A stretch of DNA of 64,000 bases. Origin: Paludicola sp. MB14-C6 (GTDB taxonomy: Bacteria; Bacillota; Clostridia; Oscillospirales; Ruminococcaceae). This document shows, one piece after another, positions 29,762-40,793 of the stretch (position 1 is its first letter; each line of letters begins with the position of its first letter). The stretch is from assembly GCF_030908625.1 (NCBI RefSeq), contig NZ_CP133133.1, positions 1,984,001 to 2,048,000 on the forward strand, written 5' to 3'. The notes beneath the pieces are model-generated. The model was given only the letters and a program-made list of their open reading frames with translations. It did no database searches and was not told where the DNA came from. The position numbers and the translations under genes were made by a program.

Positions 29762-30028
29762 TTAAAACAAGTAAGTGATTAAAAGCATAATACAGGCGCC
29801 TAATAGAAAATAAAGAGAAGCCTTTAAAAAAGGAATACCGATTGCGTGCTTTTTCTTTGGCTTTGGTGGTTGTAGTTTGTCCATATAGCTATGTGCTTTT
29901 TGATTCAATATTTTTTCACCTAAATGATTTTTATCGGGGTTGATAATTAGAATTGCTTTTTGTACATAATCATCTCGGGTATAATTTATTTCGACAATTT
30001 GTTTATTAACACCTTTTACTGTGTTCAT
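29762..30028 (-). CDS. Small tail-anchored hypothetical protein
   Basis: An 88-residue protein: soluble N-terminal part (EINYTRDDYVQKAILIINPDKNH), a Pro/Lys-rich hinge (PPKPKKKH) and one C-terminal membrane helix (about residues 65-87). ATG 30028 has AAAGGA nine bases upstream; ATG 30037 is too close to it. Family not recognised. Confidence 0.6.
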   Translation of the reverse strand: MNTVKGVNKQIVEINYTRDDYVQKAILIINPDKNHLGEKILNQKAHSYMDKLQPPKPKKKHAIGIPFLKASLYFLLGACIMLLITYLF

Positions 30029-30187
30029 AATAATCATTCCTTTGCTTATTTCAAAATGGGTTATTTATATTTTATACTAAAACCATCTGTTTTAATCAAC
30101 AAAAGCAAATATATACACAATGTAGTCATAACTTTATGAATATACAGTGAAATGTATAGAAAATGCAGGTCAATTTTGCACACAAAT

Positions 30188-30479: not shown

Positions 30480-31238
30480 ATGGAACAAACAGAGAATATT
30501 CAAAATCAAGACATCATTTCAGGTAGAAATGCAGTTATCGAAGCCCTAAAATCCAATCGTAATATCGATGCAATCTATATGACGAATGGTGAGACACAAG
30601 GCAGCATCAACAAAATTAAAGCAATGGCTCGTGAAAAAGGAATTGTTGTGAAATTCACTACAAATCAAAAATTGGATTTGATGAGTGAAGGAACAACACA
30701 TCAAGGTGTAGTTGCTGTTTGTCCATGTGCTGACTACGCTACTGTTGAAGATATTTTAAGAATATCTGAGCAAAAAGGAACTTCTCCGTTTATTATTATT
30801 GCAGATGAAATCGAAGATCCACACAATTTAGGTGCGTTAATTCGTACAGCAGAAGCATGTGGTGCAGACGGCATTATTATTCCAAAGCGAAGAAGTGCAT
30901 CCTTGTCAGCAACAGTTTATAAAACGAGTGCAGGTGCTGCTAGCGTTTTACCTGTTGCAAAAGTATCAAATTTGGTATCTTGCATTAAAGACCTTAAGAA
31001 GCAAAATATATGGGTATATGGTGCTGATATAGGTGGACAACTATGGTGCGAGCATAAATATAACGGCGGTGTGGCAATTGTTATTGGTTCCGAAGGAAAC
31101 GGATTAGGCAGATTGGTAAAAGAAGAATGCGACTTTATCACCACATTACCAATGTACGGAAACATTAACTCATTAAATGCATCTGTAGCAGGTGGAATTT
31201 TAATGTATGAAGTGGCAAGACAACGTTTAGGAAAATAA
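30480..31238 (+). CDS. rlmB: 23S rRNA (guanosine-2'-O-)-methyltransferase RlmB / TrmH family
   Basis: A 252-residue SPOUT methyltransferase. The N-terminal substrate-binding domain begins IISGRNAVIEALKS. SPOUT motifs follow: DEIEDPHNLGALIRTAEACG, IVIGSEGNGL and LNASVAGGILMYE, which form the knot that binds S-adenosylmethionine. ATG after AAGGAAACC. It modifies 23S rRNA or a tRNA loop. It lies 44 bases ahead of the large P-type-like membrane protein. Confidence 0.93.
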   Translation: MEQTENIQNQDIISGRNAVIEALKSNRNIDAIYMTNGETQGSINKIKAMAREKGIVVKFTTNQKLDLMSEGTTHQGVVAVCPCADYATVEDILRISEQKGTSPFIIIADEIEDPHNLGALIRTAEACGADGIIIPKRRSASLSATVYKTSAGAASVLPVAKVSNLVSCIKDLKKQNIWVYGADIGGQLWCEHKYNGGVAIVIGSEGNGLGRLVKEECDFITTLPMYGNINSLNASVAGGILMYEVARQRLGK

Positions 31239-31282
31239 CTTATATTCATACGTCTTTGTGATGATTGAAATGGGGGACAAAA

Positions 31283-33922
31283 ATGGATGACAAAAATATT
31301 TCAGTTGAAGAGATTTTGCAAGAGTTGCAACTTAAAAAAGCTAAAAATGAAAAATCGAAACCACAAAGCGACCTCAATCATGTAAATGAAATCATTGAGC
31401 AAATTATTACAGAAAAAAAGAATGAACAGATTAAAAAAGAAAATATAACGCTAAGTGATGAAGAAAAACGAAGCCTAGAAAAAGAGATCAAAGCACAAAC
31501 ACGCTCAATAAGCCAGTTGTATGAGCAAATGGAGAAAGATAATACTCGCCAATTAAAAAAGCAACAGCGAGAGGAACGTGCAGTTGAAAAGTTATTGCGT
31601 ATTGAGCCAACTGAAAAGAAAGAAACGGAATTATTAAAAAACCAAGATACTCAGTCTTTAAAAGTGACTTCTGTTCAATCTAATCAAAAGGTAAAAGTAG
31701 AAACATCTTCATTTCAAAAGCTCAATTCAGAAGAAAAGCAAGATAAGCTAGAAGAGCTGAAACAAACTGCAAATAATGATCATATTAAGCGTGAGATGCA
31801 AAATATTACATCGCATTTTGGGCGTTTCAAGATGGATGACAAGCATGTTGAAGACAGTTATGGCAAGCTTGAGATGAACGAAAAAAATTATAAAGAGTAT
31901 AAGAAAAACAGAACTAAAAAAATCGAAAAGTTTGTTTTACAAGAGGAAACGCCGGAGAAATCTCTTAATAAAGAAGATGTAATTGCTCCAAAACCGATTA
32001 CTACTCAATTGCAGACGGAGGAGAAAGTAAAACCGATCCCTATACTCGAAGAAAAGGATGCTGTTTTGCAAAACAATCCGATTGAAGAAGAAATAGAAAG
32101 CCAAGATGAGGTAATGGAAACGGTTATTCATAAAGGAAAGCAACCATTACCCCCAATTTTGAATGAATCAGATGAAGATGAGGAGTTAGAATACACCAAT
32201 GCTTCTCAAAATGAAGAAATTACGCAGTATCTTTCTAAGCTAACAAAAACATTGTTCTTTCGTGTAAGCAGTTTTAGCGTTCTTTCTTTGATTGCACTTG
32301 TTTTATGCTTTTTCCAAGTATCAGGTACGCAGTTTACAGCGTTTCATATGATTACAATATCACCGAGTATCTATGTAATGGCAAATATAATATTATTGGC
32401 GATTGCTATGTGCTTGGCGTTTGATGTGCTGATATCGGCTATTCAATCAATGCTGAATAGAGAACCGGTTACAGATATGTTATATAGCGTTACAACCGTA
32501 GTATGCCTTGCTGCGAATATGCTTTTGCTGTTTAATACAAGTGAAGCACTTACCAAAGGCGTTCAATTGTTTACGCCAATACTCATTATTACGTTTTTGT
32601 TCTTATACATATCTAAATACATGGAAGTCAAAATGATAACACATAATTTTGATTTTATTAAGAATGTTGATAATGAAGAACGATATGGTATCACAATGGT
32701 GGATGATTTTGCAGCTAAAGTAGATATGACTAAGGGAGTTATTGATGAAGAACCATTCTTAGCTAAGACGGTTAAGACTAAATTCTTCAGCCACTTTCTT
32801 TTCCACGTGAATCAGCCTGATGCAAGCGATAAAGCTAACTCTAAAATAGTATTATATGCTTTAATTACGTCAATCATTTCAGGTGGACTCGCATTCCTAT
32901 TATCAAACAAAAATATTTATGTTGCTATGACTATGGCAAGTGGTGTGATGGTGATTGCAACTTCTTTTGTAGCTACATTTTTCTCTGTTTTCCCAATTTA
33001 TGATACAAAAGCAGTTTTATCTCATTTTAAAGCGATGATTCCAAATCAAGACGCATTCGATGAATATAGCGAAGTAAACTCTATCTTGCTGGATGCATAT
33101 GATTTATTCCCGAAAGATACTGTAATCCTGCATGGTATTAAAACTTTTTCAGGAAAACGAATTGATGAGGCAATTGTAAATGCAGCCAGTGTTCTTTGTG
33201 AAAGCAGAAGCATTTTAGCTAATGTATTTTTAACGATTATTGCAGATAATAAGTCGTTGCTGAAACCCGTAGATTCTATTAAATATGAAGATTTAATGGG
33301 TATTTCTGCTTGGGTGGACAATAGGCGAGTGATCATTGGAAATCGTGAACTTATGATTCAACATTCTATTGCAGTTCCAAGTAAAAACTATGAGCTAAAG
33401 TATCAAGAGCAATCTCAAGAAATTGTATATGTAGCAACAGAGGGAGAATTGTCTGCTGCATTCATTATTGAGCTGAAAGCAGAACAAGAAATAGTTAATA
33501 TGTTGCAGGTTTTAGAGCGAAACGGAATTGCAGCTATTGTGAAATCAGTTGATTCTTGCTTAACGCCAACTGTCATTTCACAGCTGTTTGATATTGGACA
33601 AGATTTCATTAAGATACTGCCTTCAAGATTACATAATACATATTATAAACAGGTAGAATCCAAAGAAAAAATGGATGCAGTTCTTGGAACAAACGGAACA
33701 ATCGAGAGCTATATTATTTCAACTGTTACAACGAAAAAGCTTTCTCATTGCATGAAAACCGGATTGCTTTTTCATATTATTTGTATTGTTTTGGGAGTAC
33801 TCGGTTTTTTCGCATTGTTCTTGACAGGACATTTAAATCTTTGTACGAATTTAGCAGTCTTACTATACTTAAGTGCATTCTTTCTTATTTACCTATTCAA
33901 TCAAAAAAGTATACGTTTATAA
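31283..33922 (+). CDS. Degenerate P-type ATPase-like membrane protein (pseudoenzyme)
   Basis: An 879-residue protein. Residues 1 to about 310 are highly charged, Lys/Glu-rich and probably coiled or disordered. Membrane spans follow from about 320 in pairs (two, two more near 410-450, two near 530-570) with two at the C-terminus. Between these, a P1B-like cytoplasmic region is recognisable: ISAWVDNRRVIIGNRELM near 686 matches the N-domain. However, the DKTGT phosphorylation motif reads D604-A-Y-D-L-F, and no TGDN or GDGxND is present. It therefore should not hydrolyse ATP like a pump. ATG 31283 is chosen for its GGGGGAC site. Function unknown. Confidence 0.8.
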   Translation: MDDKNISVEEILQELQLKKAKNEKSKPQSDLNHVNEIIEQIITEKKNEQIKKENITLSDEEKRSLEKEIKAQTRSISQLYEQMEKDNTRQLKKQQREERAVEKLLRIEPTEKKETELLKNQDTQSLKVTSVQSNQKVKVETSSFQKLNSEEKQDKLEELKQTANNDHIKREMQNITSHFGRFKMDDKHVEDSYGKLEMNEKNYKEYKKNRTKKIEKFVLQEETPEKSLNKEDVIAPKPITTQLQTEEKVKPIPILEEKDAVLQNNPIEEEIESQDEVMETVIHKGKQPLPPILNESDEDEELEYTNASQNEEITQYLSKLTKTLFFRVSSFSVLSLIALVLCFFQVSGTQFTAFHMITISPSIYVMANIILLAIAMCLAFDVLISAIQSMLNREPVTDMLYSVTTVVCLAANMLLLFNTSEALTKGVQLFTPILIITFLFLYISKYMEVKMITHNFDFIKNVDNEERYGITMVDDFAAKVDMTKGVIDEEPFLAKTVKTKFFSHFLFHVNQPDASDKANSKIVLYALITSIISGGLAFLLSNKNIYVAMTMASGVMVIATSFVATFFSVFPIYDTKAVLSHFKAMIPNQDAFDEYSEVNSILLDAYDLFPKDTVILHGIKTFSGKRIDEAIVNAASVLCESRSILANVFLTIIADNKSLLKPVDSIKYEDLMGISAWVDNRRVIIGNRELMIQHSIAVPSKNYELKYQEQSQEIVYVATEGELSAAFIIELKAEQEIVNMLQVLERNGIAAIVKSVDSCLTPTVISQLFDIGQDFIKILPSRLHNTYYKQVESKEKMDAVLGTNGTIESYIISTVTTKKLSHCMKTGLLFHIICIVLGVLGFFALFLTGHLNLCTNLAVLLYLSAFFLIYLFNQKSIRL

Positions 33923-33925
33923 AAG

Positions 33926-33959
33926 AAATAGCAAGGAATATTTCCTTGCTATTTGTTTT
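33926..33959 (+). terminator. Rho-independent terminator
   Basis: A perfect 13-bp stem (AAATAGCAAGGAA / TTCCTTGCTATTT, 3-nt loop) followed by GTTTTA. Confidence 0.85.
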
Positions 33960-34030: not shown

Positions 34031-34732
34031 ATGAAATATATTGGGGTTATGAAAAGAGTAAGTATTTCTTTTATATTGATAGCAGTGTTATTCAGTTTAA
34101 CGGCTTGCCAAAAGCAAAAGTACATACCGCCCAATGCACAAAAATATCAATATAACTACTACCCAGGAACGGATTGGGGAATGACCGAGCAAGAAGTGAT
34201 AAAATCACTTGGGATTAAGCAAAAGGAAATAAACCGTGAAAGTGAAGATTTAGAAAATAGTGTAAATTACTCTGCGTTCGAGATAAAAAAGAAAGTGTAT
34301 GGTTATCCAGCAATGATTCGATTCAGTTTTCATAACCTCGTAACTGAATCGAACAAGCCAATTGGTTTAACATCGGTTTCAATTGTATTTAAAGATAAGT
34401 ATGATATGAAGCAAATAAACGCTTTTCTAAAGGCGGATTTAACTTCTCAAGGTGATTTTCTTTGTCAATCATCTATAGAAGAAGCACAGCATGATGATTT
34501 TTCAGCCCACTATGAGGCTAAGTTTACATTATCAAAATTGAGAGAATCTTCGGGATATGAAAATTTTAAAATAAAAGAGTATGGAAAGGATTTAATTGTT
34601 ATAAAGCAAGGTGGACCTATATCAACAGTTGATTTGGGAAAAGATATAGAAGACGAAAATGGAACTAAACCGAATGGATGCTACATCACATATGAAGGTT
34701 TAATGGCAGCTATACTTAATAATATAGAATAA
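34031..34732 (+). CDS. Lipoprotein of unknown function, paralogue A
   Basis: A 233-residue lipoprotein: signal peptide to lipobox S-L-T-A-C, then a shared motif NAQKYQYNYYPGTDWGMT, a mixed alpha/beta body, and a C-terminal YEGLMAAILNNIE. ATG after ATAGGAGTG. No family recognised. The motif and both ends are shared with the next gene (34753), a tandem duplicate. Confidence 0.8.
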   Translation: MKYIGVMKRVSISFILIAVLFSLTACQKQKYIPPNAQKYQYNYYPGTDWGMTEQEVIKSLGIKQKEINRESEDLENSVNYSAFEIKKKVYGYPAMIRFSFHNLVTESNKPIGLTSVSIVFKDKYDMKQINAFLKADLTSQGDFLCQSSIEEAQHDDFSAHYEAKFTLSKLRESSGYENFKIKEYGKDLIVIKQGGPISTVDLGKDIEDENGTKPNGCYITYEGLMAAILNNIE

Positions 34733-34752: not shown

Positions 34753-35436
34753 ATGAAATATGTAAAGAATTTAGGCGTTATATTATTATCAATCGCATTA
34801 CTGTTATCAACAACAGCTTGCCAAAAACAAAAGGTCGTACCATCAAATGCACAAAAATATCAATATAACTACTACCCAGCAACGGATTGGGGTATGACAA
34901 GAGAGAATTGTTTAAAAGCATTGCATTTAAAGGAAACGGATGTTACAGATGGAGTTCTCCCAGAGATAAAAGAAAAAGATATAGCTGGGTTTTCTATTAA
35001 AAAACAAGTCTTTGGCTATCCGGCAACAATTTATTTTTGTTTTTATTCCAAAAAGGTATCCCAAACAAAAGAAATGGGATTAGCAGATATTTATGTAGTC
35101 TATGAGGGCCAATTTGATGCAGTAAAAATTACGAATGAATTAGTGAAAGGATTAGAAAAGCAAAAGATACCTTTTGTTAATTACAATCCAGAATTAAAAG
35201 ACGCATCCAGTGCAATCTTTCGGGAATATTCAAGCAAAGAAACATTGCAAAGTTTAAATGATGTTGCACTGAAAGAAAAGGCAAAGAAAGCATTTTCACT
35301 GGCTTATAACGGTGCAGATGTTTCAAAGTATGAATCAAAACCACTATCACTTGTAAACATAAAATATCCAATTGAAGGAAAGTGTAGTATTTATTTTGCG
35401 GGTTATGTCCCTGCAATACTCAATAATATAGAATAA
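34753..35436 (+). CDS. Lipoprotein of unknown function, paralogue B
   Basis: A 227-residue lipoprotein: lipobox S-T-T-A-C, then NAQKYQYNYYPATDWGMT and a C-terminal VPAILNNIE, all close to paralogue A. The middle differs strongly, which points to old duplication followed by divergence. GGTTGGTG precedes the ATG. Co-transcribed with paralogue A (20-base gap), and a terminator follows. Confidence 0.8.
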   Translation: MKYVKNLGVILLSIALLLSTTACQKQKVVPSNAQKYQYNYYPATDWGMTRENCLKALHLKETDVTDGVLPEIKEKDIAGFSIKKQVFGYPATIYFCFYSKKVSQTKEMGLADIYVVYEGQFDAVKITNELVKGLEKQKIPFVNYNPELKDASSAIFREYSSKETLQSLNDVALKEKAKKAFSLAYNGADVSKYESKPLSLVNIKYPIEGKCSIYFAGYVPAILNNIE

Positions 35437-35594: not shown

Positions 35595-35743
35595 TCAAAG
35601 TAACAGGTGAATATTTATATCTAAAATATACAAAAATTCGCCAAACTTTTTGCAATATATGTAAAAAGATAAGATAATGGTATACTTATCCCGCATATAA
35701 GTATCCATAAAATTTCATTTCGTGCGGAGAAAAGGTGATTCTA

Positions 35744-37798
35744 ATGAAACAGTATAGTGCAAACAAAATTAAAAATGTCGCAATCGTTGGACACGGTGGT
35801 GCAGGAAAGACTTCCTTAGCAGAAGCACTTTTATTTCTGACCAATGCCAGTGATAGATTGGGAACAATTGCAGACGGAAATACCGTATGTGATTTTGACG
35901 CAGAGGAAATTAAAAGAAAAGCAACTATATCTTTGAGTTTAGCTCCTTTTGAATATCAAGATGTTAAAGTAAACCTTCTCGACACTCCGGGATTATTTGA
36001 TTTTACTTCAGGACTTTATGAAGGTGTGCGTGCGTCTGATAGCGTTATTATAACAGTTTCAGGAAAATCAGGAGTTACCGTTGGTACAAAAAAGACTTTT
36101 AAACTTGCTAAGAAAAGCGGAAAATCTTCTTTAATCTTTGTTAGTAAAATGGACAGAGACAGCGCTGATTTTTATAAAATATTAGAGCAGTTAAAATCTG
36201 TATTTGGACCATCTGTATGTCCTCTCGTAGTACCTTTTGGCAGTGATAAGAAAATTGAAGGCTATGTGAGCTTAATCGAAATGAAAGCATATACTTATGA
36301 AAATGGAAAAGCAAAAGAAATCCCAATGCCAAACACAGAGCATAGAATAGATGGGTTAATAACTGCAATTAGTGAGGCTGTAGCGGAAACGGATGAAGCC
36401 TTATTTGAAAAATATTTTTCTGGCGAACAATTTACAAAAGAAGAGCTCTTAAAAGGAATTCATGATGGTATTAAAAGTGGAACGATTACTCCTGTTTTTT
36501 GCGGTTCTGCCGTTACATTAGAAGCAATGGATTTACTTTTAAAAGCAATAGTAAATTTACTTCCGTCTGCTAATGAAGTGTGTGCTGAAAAGCCAATAGA
36601 GGGAAGCTATGAAATTGACGAAACAAAGCCGTTGGCTGCCTATATTTTCAAGACAGTTGCTGACCCATTTGTCGGAAAGCTATCCTTTGTGAAGGTACTG
36701 CAAGGAAAATTATCTTCAGGCATAGAAGTTAATAATATGACAACGGGTGAAAGTGAAAAGATTGGTAAGCTTGTGTTTTTACGTGGTAAAAAGCAAGAAG
36801 ATGCTCCGGTAATCGTAGCAGGTGATATTGGTGCGATTACAAAACTAGAGGCAAATACAGGTGATACCCTTTGCTTTGGAACACAAGTAATAATGGATAA
36901 AATTAAATATTCCGAACCATGTTATTCAATGGCTGTAATTCCTACCGCAAAAGGTGACGAGAGCAAAATTTCTCAAGCAATTGCAAGGCTGTTAGAAGAA
37001 GATCCTTCTTTGTCTTTTACCAATAATGTTGAAACACATCAACAAGTATTATCTGGTTTAGGTGAACAACATTTGGATGTTGTTGTTGCAAAAATGAAAA
37101 CCAAATTTGGCGTTTCTGTTGCTCTTGATCCACCAATTGTGGCATATAGAGAAACCATTTTGAAAAAAGTTCGAGTACAAGGTAGACATAAAAAGCAATC
37201 TGGTGGCCACGGTCAATACGGCGATGTATGGATTGAATTTGAGCCATGTGATAGTGACGGATTAGTATTCGATCAAAAGGTTGTCGGTGGAGCAGTTCCA
37301 AAATCATATTTTCCGGCAGTTGAAAAAGGCTTGCGTGAATGTATTAATAAAGGTGTTCTAGCGGGATATCCTGTAGTAGGCTTAAAAGCTACTTTAGTAG
37401 ATGGATCATACCATCCGGTAGATTCTTCTGAAATGTCCTTTAAGATGGCAGCTACCATTGCTTATAAGAATGGTTTACAGCAAGCAGCTCCAATACTCTT
37501 AGAGCCAATTGGAAAGCTGTCTGTTATCGTTCCTGATGCCAATACAGGCGATATGATGGGCGAGTTGAATAAGCGTCGTGGCCGTGTGCTTGGTATGAAT
37601 CCAAACGAAGAAGGCACATCAATCATTGAAGCGGAAGTCCCAATGAGTGAAATGCATGATTTTGCAACGTTGGTTCGTCAACAAACGCAAGGCAGTGGAA
37701 CATTTAGCTTTGAATTTGAACGATATGACCAATTACCGAATCAGCTAGTAGCTGTTGTTATTGAAAAAGCAAAAGCATTGTTTAGTGAAGAAGAATAA
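35744..37798 (+). CDS. Elongation factor G-like translational GTPase (EF-G2 type)
   Basis: A 684-residue five-domain GTPase. The P-loop is GHGGAGKTS (residues 16-24) rather than AHIDAGKTT of housekeeping EF-G, switch II is DTPG, and G4 is SKMD. This is the EF-G-like branch (COG0480, EF-G2). Domain IV carries GRHKKQSGGHGQYGDVWIEFEP. ATG 35744 is preceded by AAGGTGATT; GTG 35735 is unlikely. The housekeeping fusA normally sits in the str operon, absent here. Function of this branch is unclear, possibly a condition-specific factor. Confidence 0.88.
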   Translation: MKQYSANKIKNVAIVGHGGAGKTSLAEALLFLTNASDRLGTIADGNTVCDFDAEEIKRKATISLSLAPFEYQDVKVNLLDTPGLFDFTSGLYEGVRASDSVIITVSGKSGVTVGTKKTFKLAKKSGKSSLIFVSKMDRDSADFYKILEQLKSVFGPSVCPLVVPFGSDKKIEGYVSLIEMKAYTYENGKAKEIPMPNTEHRIDGLITAISEAVAETDEALFEKYFSGEQFTKEELLKGIHDGIKSGTITPVFCGSAVTLEAMDLLLKAIVNLLPSANEVCAEKPIEGSYEIDETKPLAAYIFKTVADPFVGKLSFVKVLQGKLSSGIEVNNMTTGESEKIGKLVFLRGKKQEDAPVIVAGDIGAITKLEANTGDTLCFGTQVIMDKIKYSEPCYSMAVIPTAKGDESKISQAIARLLEEDPSLSFTNNVETHQQVLSGLGEQHLDVVVAKMKTKFGVSVALDPPIVAYRETILKKVRVQGRHKKQSGGHGQYGDVWIEFEPCDSDGLVFDQKVVGGAVPKSYFPAVEKGLRECINKGVLAGYPVVGLKATLVDGSYHPVDSSEMSFKMAATIAYKNGLQQAAPILLEPIGKLSVIVPDANTGDMMGELNKRRGRVLGMNPNEEGTSIIEAEVPMSEMHDFATLVRQQTQGSGTFSFEFERYDQLPNQLVAVVIEKAKALFSEEE

Positions 37799-37867: not shown

Positions 37868-40546
37868 TTATTTTCGTCTAAAAAATCCAACAATAACGGG
37901 AGCAATTAGACTATATAGGATAGGAACCATTACTTGACTAAAAGTTAATGGGACTGTTGAAAAAATTACTTGCAAAGTCGGAATATATAAAACAACAATT
38001 AACGTAATCATTGAGAGCATTGCTGCTAAGATTAATTTTATATTATCAAAAAATGGAATTTCGAATAAGCTTTTCGTTTCACTCTTACATTCAAATACAT
38101 GAATTAACTGTGCAAAGATTAAGGCAAATAAAGCACCGCTTCGAGCAACGTCTACACTCCTACTCATTTTAAATAGTGTTACAAATGTTGCAAGTGTTGC
38201 TAACCCAATGAGAATACCACGAAAGATAATCTTGGTTGCCAAACCGTTGGAGAAAACACTTTCATCTGGTCTTCTTGGAGGAACAAACATGGCACGTTTA
38301 TCAGATGGCTCTAGCCCTAATGCAATTGCAGGCAGTCCGTCAGTTACGAGATTAACCAATAGAATTTGTAATGGGAATAGGATAACAGGCATACCCATGA
38401 GCATTCCCAAAAACATGGTAATAACCTCACCAATATTACAAGCGAGTAAGTAACGAATAAACTTGCGAATATTATTGTAAATGCTTCTACCTTCATCAAC
38501 AGCATTTACTAAAGTTGCAAAGTTATCATCAAGCAAAATAATTTCGGAAGCTTCTCTGGTTACGTCGGTTCCGTTCATACCCATACTTACACCGATATCT
38601 GCTTCTTTTATTGCTGGCGCATCGTTTACACCATCACCGGTCATAGCTACGATATGCCCATGCCGTTTTAACGCTCTTACAATCATAAGCTTGTGGTTAG
38701 GGCTTACTCTTGCAAAAACCGTTACCTTGTTAACTATTTCGCTTAACTCATCAGCTGTCATTCGGTCAAGCTCATTTCCCGTAAGAACCATATCACCTTT
38801 ATGATAAATACCAATTTCTTTTGCAATAGCAACAGCAGTTTTTTTATGATCTCCGGTAATCATTACTGTTCGAATACCGGCTTTATAACAATTTAACACT
38901 GCACCTTTTACTTCTTTTCTCGGAGGATCAATCATGCCGATTAGCCCGATAAAAGTCAGCCCTTCTTCGGTTTTCGGATCAGTAAGTGGTGTAACTTTCT
39001 TATAGGCTATGCAAATTACACGAAGCGCAGAATCAGCCATTTTATTGTTTTGATCTTCAATGTTACGTTTATCAGTTGCTAACATCGGGAATTCTTGTGT
39101 ACCTTGTCTATAGGTTGTGCAACGGTCTAACAGAATATCAAATCCGCCTTTTACAAACATATATTTTTGGCGATTTTCATCTTCAACAACAACGCTCATG
39201 CGTTTTCTTGTACTGTCAAATGGCTGCTCATCTAAACGAGTATGGCTTTCTTCTAATTTCTCTCTTGTAAAGTCATATTCCTTTGCAAGATTTAATAAGC
39301 AGATTTCAGTATGGTCACCAAAAGCTTCATTATCATCCGATATGACAGCATTGTTGCAAAGCGTAATGGCTTTTAATAAAAGTTGATTGGTTGAATTGGA
39401 TAGTGCCAGTTTTTCAGCGCTTATATAACCATCGCAAGTATATATGCGTGTTGCAGTCATTTTATTTTGCGTAAGTGTACCTGTTTTATCGGAACAAATT
39501 ACTGTTGCACAGCCAAGAGTTTCAACCGCATGAAGTCGGCGAACTAGTGCATTTCGCTTTACCATCCTGCTAACAGAAAGTGCGAGTGAGATTGTAACAA
39601 TAGCCGCTAAGCCTTCCGGAACAGCTGCAACTGCTAGGGATACACCTGTAATCAGCATATCAAATAAGAGTTCACCACGCAAAAAGCCAGTTAGTGTTAC
39701 AACAGCACAAATGAGTAAACAACCAACTGCAATATATTTAGAAAGTACTTCTAAGCGCTTTTGTAATGGGGTTTGTTCATCTTCTATTTCTTCAAGCATA
39801 GAAGCAATACCGCCCATTTTGGTATCCATGCCAACCGCCGTTACTCGATAATTACAATGTCCTTTTGTGACAACGCATCCCATGAAAACCATACATTGCT
39901 CATTATATAGAGTAGGGTCCTCAAAAATGACGTGCGTTTTTTTCACAGGAACAGATTCACCCGTAAGCATTGCTTCATCACATTCCAATGAAGTGGAATG
40001 TAGTAAAACACCATCCGCAGGAATTTTATCTCCTGCTTCTAACATAACAACATCACCGCAAACAATTTCACTAGATGGAATTTGTATAATGACACCATCA
40101 CGAAATACTTTAGCCATAGGCGATGCCATATTTTTTAATGCTTCTAATGTTTTTTCTGTTCGATATTCTTGAATAAAGCCAAGAAAGCCGTTCATTAAAA
40201 CGATTACCGCAATCGCAATTGCTTCTACGTATTCACCCATAATAATCGAAACAAAGGTACAAATAAGTAGAATAATCGTCATGATATCTTTATATTGTCC
40301 TAAAAATATTTTAAGAGGGCTAACTTTTTTCTTATGTAACAATTCGTTTTTACCATTTTTAATCAGCAATTGCTCTGCTTCAGCAGTTGTTAGCCCCAAT
40401 ACGGTTTTATAATGTGTGTCAATGATTGGCTTGCCTTTATGTTGTATTATGGCTTTGCTTTTAAGATTTGACTCTGGCTTTGCCTTGACTTTTGGTTGTA
40501 GCGGTTCATTTGACAAGCTTTTGTCTAAAAAGTCTAGCATTTTCAT
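37868..40546 (-). CDS. Calcium-translocating P-type ATPase (PMCA/SERCA-like)
   Basis: An 892-residue P2-type cation pump. The N-terminal cation-ATPase domain is followed by membrane helices with AAVPEGLAAIV (ion site in TM4). The phosphorylated Asp353 is in DKTGTLTQNKMT, and the hinge motif TGDGVNDAPA is near residue 636. The C-terminal half has the expected six helices. It exports Ca2+ from the cytoplasm. ATG 40546 is chosen because AAGGAG lies seven bases upstream; a longer ATG start at 40609 has none. It makes a useful contrast with the degenerate homologue at 31283. Confidence 0.93.
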   Translation of the reverse strand: MKMLDFLDKSLSNEPLQPKVKAKPESNLKSKAIIQHKGKPIIDTHYKTVLGLTTAEAEQLLIKNGKNELLHKKKVSPLKIFLGQYKDIMTIILLICTFVSIIMGEYVEAIAIAVIVLMNGFLGFIQEYRTEKTLEALKNMASPMAKVFRDGVIIQIPSSEIVCGDVVMLEAGDKIPADGVLLHSTSLECDEAMLTGESVPVKKTHVIFEDPTLYNEQCMVFMGCVVTKGHCNYRVTAVGMDTKMGGIASMLEEIEDEQTPLQKRLEVLSKYIAVGCLLICAVVTLTGFLRGELLFDMLITGVSLAVAAVPEGLAAIVTISLALSVSRMVKRNALVRRLHAVETLGCATVICSDKTGTLTQNKMTATRIYTCDGYISAEKLALSNSTNQLLLKAITLCNNAVISDDNEAFGDHTEICLLNLAKEYDFTREKLEESHTRLDEQPFDSTRKRMSVVVEDENRQKYMFVKGGFDILLDRCTTYRQGTQEFPMLATDKRNIEDQNNKMADSALRVICIAYKKVTPLTDPKTEEGLTFIGLIGMIDPPRKEVKGAVLNCYKAGIRTVMITGDHKKTAVAIAKEIGIYHKGDMVLTGNELDRMTADELSEIVNKVTVFARVSPNHKLMIVRALKRHGHIVAMTGDGVNDAPAIKEADIGVSMGMNGTDVTREASEIILLDDNFATLVNAVDEGRSIYNNIRKFIRYLLACNIGEVITMFLGMLMGMPVILFPLQILLVNLVTDGLPAIALGLEPSDKRAMFVPPRRPDESVFSNGLATKIIFRGILIGLATLATFVTLFKMSRSVDVARSGALFALIFAQLIHVFECKSETKSLFEIPFFDNIKLILAAMLSMITLIVVLYIPTLQVIFSTVPLTFSQVMVPILYSLIAPVIVGFFRRK

Positions 40547-40793
40547 AGCATTACTCCTTGAATCTGATGGGATACTTACATTAATAAATGCACATATCTG
40601 TATGTCCATATGTATTCAAAAGTAATAAAATTTATGACTTAAATTAAATGATCAGTGTAAATAAAAATGCATAATTAGTCGGAAACTTAACATTAAAGTA
40701 AAATCTGCAAATAAAAGATATACAATTAGTGATATTGATAGATAAATATACAATATTGTAGAATAAAAATGAAATTAGTATTGTCACAACATG

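Follow-up and report, generated by a model that had tools for sequence, protein, structure and literature searches.

Positions 31283..33922 on the forward strand of a 64,000-nucleotide stretch of Paludicola sp. MB14-C6 (contig NZ_CP133133.1, positions 1,984,001 to 2,048,000; hereafter the window) hold a gene for an 879-residue protein that resembles P1B-type ATPases, here called the pseudo-pump. An earlier note had described the product as a dead P-type ATPase-like protein, and the loss of motifs on which that description rested was confirmed in the comparison with its relatives reported below. The gene, its parts in terms of the actuator (A), phosphorylation (P) and nucleotide-binding (N) domains of pumps, and its flanking features are as follows, with the basis of each assignment in brackets.

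30480..31238, + strand: rlmB, 23S rRNA (guanosine-2251) 2'-O-methyltransferase, ending 44 bases upstream of the pseudo-pump gene (TIGR00186 at 235.5 bits, cut-off 160.15)
31272..31277, + strand: GGGGGA, a ribosome-binding-like stretch (from sequence)
31283..33922, + strand: pseudo-P1B-ATPase gene, 879 residues plus stop (open frame, fold match, family membership)
31283..32182, + strand: charged cytosolic tail, residues 1-300 (helical, mixed model confidence)
31301..31324, + strand: N-terminal motif SVEEILQE; family consensus DDILxE, often preceded by S/T-V (weighted conservation)
32195..33919, + strand: P1B-type core, residues 305-879, with eight helices read as membrane spans (AlphaFold2 model)
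32660..32821, + strand: A-domain remnant, residues 460-513, TGE columns empty (loop lengths, alignment)
33092..33109, + strand: DAYDLF at the site of DKTGT and the next residue (alignments)
33116..33475, + strand: N domain, residues 612-731, of retained length and the most conserved part (conservation, loop lengths)
33284..33316, + strand: YEDLMGISAWV, remodelled GxG loop (column counts, family against pumps)
33338..33349, + strand: GNRE, letters identical to the ATP-contact block of ATP7B (alignment to ATP7B)
33551..33553, + strand: D757, the retained Asp of TGD (99 of 104 family proteins)
33926..33954, + strand: terminator-like hairpin of 13 pairs followed by GTTTTAT, 3' of the pseudo-pump stop (pattern match only)

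The structural comparison returned the match to the P-type architecture in its P1B arrangement that had been predicted. In the AlphaFold2 model, the predicted local distance difference test score (pLDDT) of the core was at least 90 in most 10-residue blocks, and in the VIA alignment residues 314-879 matched LpCopA. Shared descent with P1B pumps was supported both by a CopA model, which matched at E 8.5e-13, and by a tree of 34 random family rows plus the window protein, 20 pumps and one P2 pump as outgroup. In this tree, obtained with a quick method and flagged for long branches and odd composition, the family formed a single clade (Shimodaira-Hasegawa-like approximate likelihood ratio test, SH-aLRT, 100; 1.95 changes per column on its stem) that grouped with 16 copper-type pumps (SH-aLRT 86). 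Most simply, a copper-type P1B-ATPase would have lost its catalytic residues once, before the order diversified; the tree fits such a single loss, with the exact sister group left unsettled by the long branches. Pfam hardly detects the family, because each of the ten Pfam families matched at E 0.01, E1-E2_ATPase and Hydrolase among them, appeared in just 1 of the 55 rows of a protein search.

Motif loss was counted on an alignment of 104 family proteins (119 from the loci minus four of less than 500 residues and 12 duplicates, giving 103, plus the window's own) and 20 pumps with intact DKTGT, TGE and GDGxND, including one encoded in the same genome as the window. At the aligned sites, DKTGT, TGE and the HP motif of the N domain were each present in 20/20 pumps and in 0/104 family proteins, and the CPC of membrane helix M4 in 18/20 and 0/104, respectively. 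The six GDGxND columns were gapped in all 104 family rows, with the motif present in 20/20 pumps. Relatives with an intact DKTGT were sought, and the motif occurred nowhere in the 119 locus proteins or the 55 protein-search rows (window included); GDGxND was likewise absent throughout the 119 locus proteins. The alignments bore out the proposed DAYDLF at the DKTGT site of the window protein. TGDN and GDGxND had also been called missing, which stood for GDGxND and failed for TGDN, whose Asp is retained. Single letters of DKTGT survived in 49 (phospho-Asp), 0 (Lys), 16 (Thr), 0 (Gly) and 0 (last Thr) of the 104 proteins, and those of CPC in 5, 78 and 1 for the first Cys, the Pro and the second Cys, respectively. 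The A-domain loop between M2 and M3 had a median of 52 residues in the family versus 117-118 in the 20 pumps, and the second half of the P domain 75 versus 106-112. The 20 pumps have 76 columns that are invariant in 95% or more of them; the family retains 6 of these in 75% or more of its members and 51 in less than 10%. Judged by sequence, this is a pseudoenzyme family that has lost its phosphorylation, dephosphorylation and metal-site residues and in which, apart from the nucleotide domain, the pump machine is dismantled.

The N domain, by comparison, has kept its length (120 residues versus 112-128 in pumps) and carries the highest mean information, 2.21, followed by the first P stretch (2.05), the membrane segments (1.45-1.72) and the tail (1.33, averaged over 115 countable columns of 300). 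In the old nucleotide loop, the second Gly of GxG (G673) was found in 103 of the 104 family proteins and the first, at residue 671, in 69, with Leu in the window; the GNRE columns held G686 in 104, N687 in 64, R688 in 82 and E689 in 63. One report on ATP7B places ATP near G1099, G1101, G1149 and N1150 by nuclear magnetic resonance signals (PMC3203118). Residues G1149 and N1150 align with family positions 686 and 687, and by motif G1099 and G1101 would correspond to 671 and 673. The ATP-contact blocks are partly kept, and ATP binding is putative. Remodelling is also evident: 34 columns were conserved in 75% or more of the family but matched in less than 60% of the pumps, and residues 608-727 hold 26 of them, including K620 (95/104 family proteins, 0/20 pumps), Y668-E669-D670 and W677 (84-87/104, 0/20), P699 and F727. 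D628 was kept in 90/104. As read from these columns, the pattern is that of a domain with a presumptive new task rather than of decay.

The charged N-terminal region noted earlier holds for the window protein, where 40% of the residues up to residue 304 are charged and pLDDT is low at 106-148 and 218-299; as a universal trait it does not hold, and conservation is highest in the N domain rather than in the tail. Tails counted to residue 304 had a median length of 274 in the family (range 13-1072), and in family f10 of the order, with open frames of 541-555 residues in all 10 genomes listed, there is almost none. At the other extreme, two uncultured Ruminococcus loci (L094 and L096) have open reading frames (ORFs) of 1578 and 1642 residues and hence very long tails. 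Tails of more than 100 residues had a median of 36% charged residues and were mostly acidic (net-charge quartiles -25, -17 and -12), and CxxC occurred in 0/104 family tails. Weighted conservation at the DDILxE start was 0.77, 0.66, 0.79, 0.85 and 0.80 for D, D, I, L and E, respectively; with a stricter regular expression, 64 of 119 mechanically called ORFs had the motif and 55 were missed. The 5215 ORFs from the fetched loci contained 6 matches to a regular expression for the motif outside the listed family genes, all of them tails or copies of family genes. A docking motif shared with other proteins of the own genome was considered and rejected: VEEIL gave 6 sites and VDDIL 5, of which one is the pseudo-pump gene and none of the others lies at a protein start, in a search by DNA patterns for these two spellings, both also admitting Phe in the last place.

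That the gene is kept by selection and is not a pseudogene had been argued from its open frame, a weaker argument now replaced by low ratios of nonsynonymous to synonymous substitution rates (dN/dS). In the 40 closest of 112 pairs, computed in the Nei-Gojobori style with our own script, dN/dS was 0.064-0.123 across the entire gene, 0.025-0.090 within the core and 0.071-0.348 within the tail, two comparisons occurring four times each as one genome was fetched twice. By this sequence measure, the gene is retained under purifying selection. In a few draft genomes (loci L009, L040, L021, L132 and L121) the gene is split into two ORFs or contains a TGA, which may reflect sequencing error, recoding or a natural split.

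A match was present in 59 of 61 kin genomes, with family and pumps mixed at the weak end. An order-wide profile separated the two, and 142 of 147 genomes of the order, which we take to be Oscillospirales in the GTDB sense, matched at 250-815 bits. In a phylum sample of 299 genomes with the three best candidates scored per genome, 4 listed genomes of the order scored 525-815 bits and all else at most 127.8 bits, the weak matches nearly always covering profile positions 420-700, the ATP-binding part of pumps. In a class sample of 147 genomes, with at most six candidates scored in each, the best match outside the order reached 60 bits. Homologues outside the order were sought in 20 stretches around weaker matches and the candidates rejected; 19 held an ORF with DKTGT, one (L155) held no ORF with either DKTGT or GDGxND, and L153 held an additional 311-residue ORF with GDGxND only. 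A scan of genome contigs gave at least 71 loci, labelled Oscillospiraceae, Ruminococcaceae, Clostridia, Eubacteriales, or Anaerotruncus, Merdimmobilis, Massiliimalia and others. Five of the 147 genomes lacked a 250-bit match. In G204, rlmB lies near a contig end and is followed by a frame with LSVNSILMEM running off the contig, which we read as the start of a pseudo-pump gene; G232, G287, G253 and G265 gave neither this match nor an rlmB match at E 1e-20, with only part of the first-look candidates scored in G265 and G287. For G232 and G287, true loss would be likelier than an assembly gap because both belong to one genus. By these scores, almost all of the sampled genomes of this order of gut bacteria carry the gene.

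Relatives had been expected after rlmB. Of the 97 loci whose upstream sequence spans 1000 bases or more, 95 indeed have rlmB ahead of the gene on the same strand, at -195 to 1107 bases (94 of 97 under a narrower rule), some genomes being included more than once in these locus counts. The median distance was 30 bases, with 83 loci at -60 to 100 bases; in the two exceptions among the 97, from genomes G008 and G037, rlmB lies on another contig. A set of 23 loci, drawn from 23 further families of the order, had rlmB upstream in 22. Of the 84 loci with room for it, 29 have an elongation factor G (EF-G) paralogue downstream on the same strand, no more than 1300 bases away; loci of five other families of the order are among these. 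In the window, rlmB and the pseudo-pump gene are probably one transcript, since 44 bases separate the two on the same strand and a terminator-like hairpin follows the pseudo-pump stop. The EF-G paralogue of the window (35735-37798; NF009381, 847.5 bits) is separated from the pseudo-pump gene by two adjacent lipoprotein-like genes (34031-34732 and 34753-35436), clear paralogues that share ACQKQK and NAQKYQYNYYP.TDWGMT and gave no Pfam or NCBIfam match at E 0.001. A small membrane-protein-like ORF of 91 residues (29762-30037, - strand) had no family match; 15 of 96 loci contain a similar ORF. The window also encodes, about 4 kb away from the pseudo-pump gene, a P2-type (Ca-type) ATPase (37868-40609, - strand) with DKTGT and GDGxND intact.

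The best explanation of these data as a whole, at a probability of about 0.6, is that the pseudo-pump is a membrane-embedded regulator or scaffold with a ligand-binding N domain; part of it is that the family protein would neither pump metal nor hydrolyse ATP by the P-type cycle, and probably has a new, non-pumping job. The N domain, its ATP loop remodelled but not removed, would bind a ligand, most likely a nucleotide of the adenine type or perhaps a partner protein. What is left of the P and A domains may relay a shape change or simply hold the N domain at the membrane, and in most lineages the charged tail with its DDILxE start could recruit a soluble partner. Several observations weigh against this picture of ligand binding, signalling and tail docking. 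The HP His is absent in 104/104 proteins and the first Gly of GxG is missing in 35/104, the window among them, and nucleotide binding may accordingly have been lost. Docking by the tail cannot apply to all members, given the tailless f10. The letters TGE occur somewhere in 13/104 family rows; in three of these (L118, L119 and L128) a rough offset places them perhaps within or close to what is left of the A domain. A single MAFFT alignment underlies the counts of conserved columns.

As a translation-linked membrane anchor, the protein would tether RlmB, ribosomes or the EF-G paralogue to the membrane or tune their action there, which would account for the order of the genes (rlmB, pseudo-pump, EF-G-like). 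The upstream rlmB in 95/97 loci, the lack of an rlmB match at E 1e-20 in four of the five genomes lacking a 250-bit match and the 29/84 EF-G-like followers, across five other families, agree with this. However, neighbouring genes need not interact, rlmB sits on a different contig in G008 and G037, one assembly gap could explain joint absence in single genomes, no EF-G-like gene is next in 55/84 loci, and the longer tails are mostly acidic whereas an RNA binder is expected to be basic; we consider such an anchor rather unlikely. A slightly better, though still doubtful, prospect is that a copper pump was converted, in a single event, into a membrane receptor found throughout the order, with a remodelled N domain that would sense a nucleotide or related signal and report to a translation-linked partner (encoded by the rlmB or EF-G-like neighbours).

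If the core instead moved a solute without ATP, as a passive channel or facilitator, its eight retained helices, the Pro of CPC in 78/104 and several membrane-segment Pro and Gly residues common to family and pumps would be accounted for, but the membrane segments are less conserved than the N domain and the conserved-column list shows no conserved Cys or polar cluster replacing the metal site, which makes this improbable. An unusual active ATPase, phosphorylated on another residue or hydrolysing directly, seems more improbable again: D757, D628 and K620 would be at hand for it, but both halves of the known cycle are without their residues, because deletions have removed the GDGxND stretch and the greater part of the A loop. 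Least credible is a decaying pump heading for loss. The overall identity of only 13-23% to the window protein among added order loci (a large divergence between families) and the split or stop-bearing frames of a few draft genomes could suggest it; it is already contradicted by dN/dS ratios far under 1 in each of the 40 closest pairs, and against it also stand presence in 142/147 genomes and the gain of conserved columns.

Dead enzymes that act in regulation, pseudo-kinases among them, are well known. In the open-licence literature no conserved bacterial family of dead P-type pumps was found described, a coverage that leaves out most subscription papers; taken jointly with the receptor reading, it is tentatively conceivable that this would be the first bacterial family of pseudo-P-type ATPases. 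The family offers a clean case for asking what a P-type N domain does without a pump. At least two members carry database labels as copper or cation pumps, which would mislead the annotation of metal resistance; entries P0034 and P0042 are labelled Cu+-exporting ATPase and cation-translocating P-type ATPase despite the absent DKTGT.

Compared with known systems, the family shares with the P1B-1 copper ATPases CopA and ATP7B the eight-helix plan, the fold and length of the N domain, the GNRE block, the second Gly of GxG and the Asp of TGD. Unlike them, it lacks DKTGT, TGE, CPC, HP and GDGxND at the aligned sites, its A loop is halved, and in place of a metal-binding head it has a charged tail free of CxxC. 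KdpB and other P-type classes ranked below the full-length P1B rows in the structural match. Among human proteins the comparison is with the P-type-like TMEM94, presumably the same protein as ERMA. In one report, TMEM94 lacks TGES and binds AMPPCP with no ATPase activity detected; unlike the present family, it has ten membrane helices, and its D417 is still under discussion as a phosphorylation site (PMC12134183). ERMA is held to be an active Mg2+ ATPase of the endoplasmic reticulum in a 2026 paper (PMC13322241). With its status thus disputed between these sources (PMC12134183, PMC13322241), TMEM94 would be a precedent for the binding of a nucleotide analogue without detected ATPase activity.
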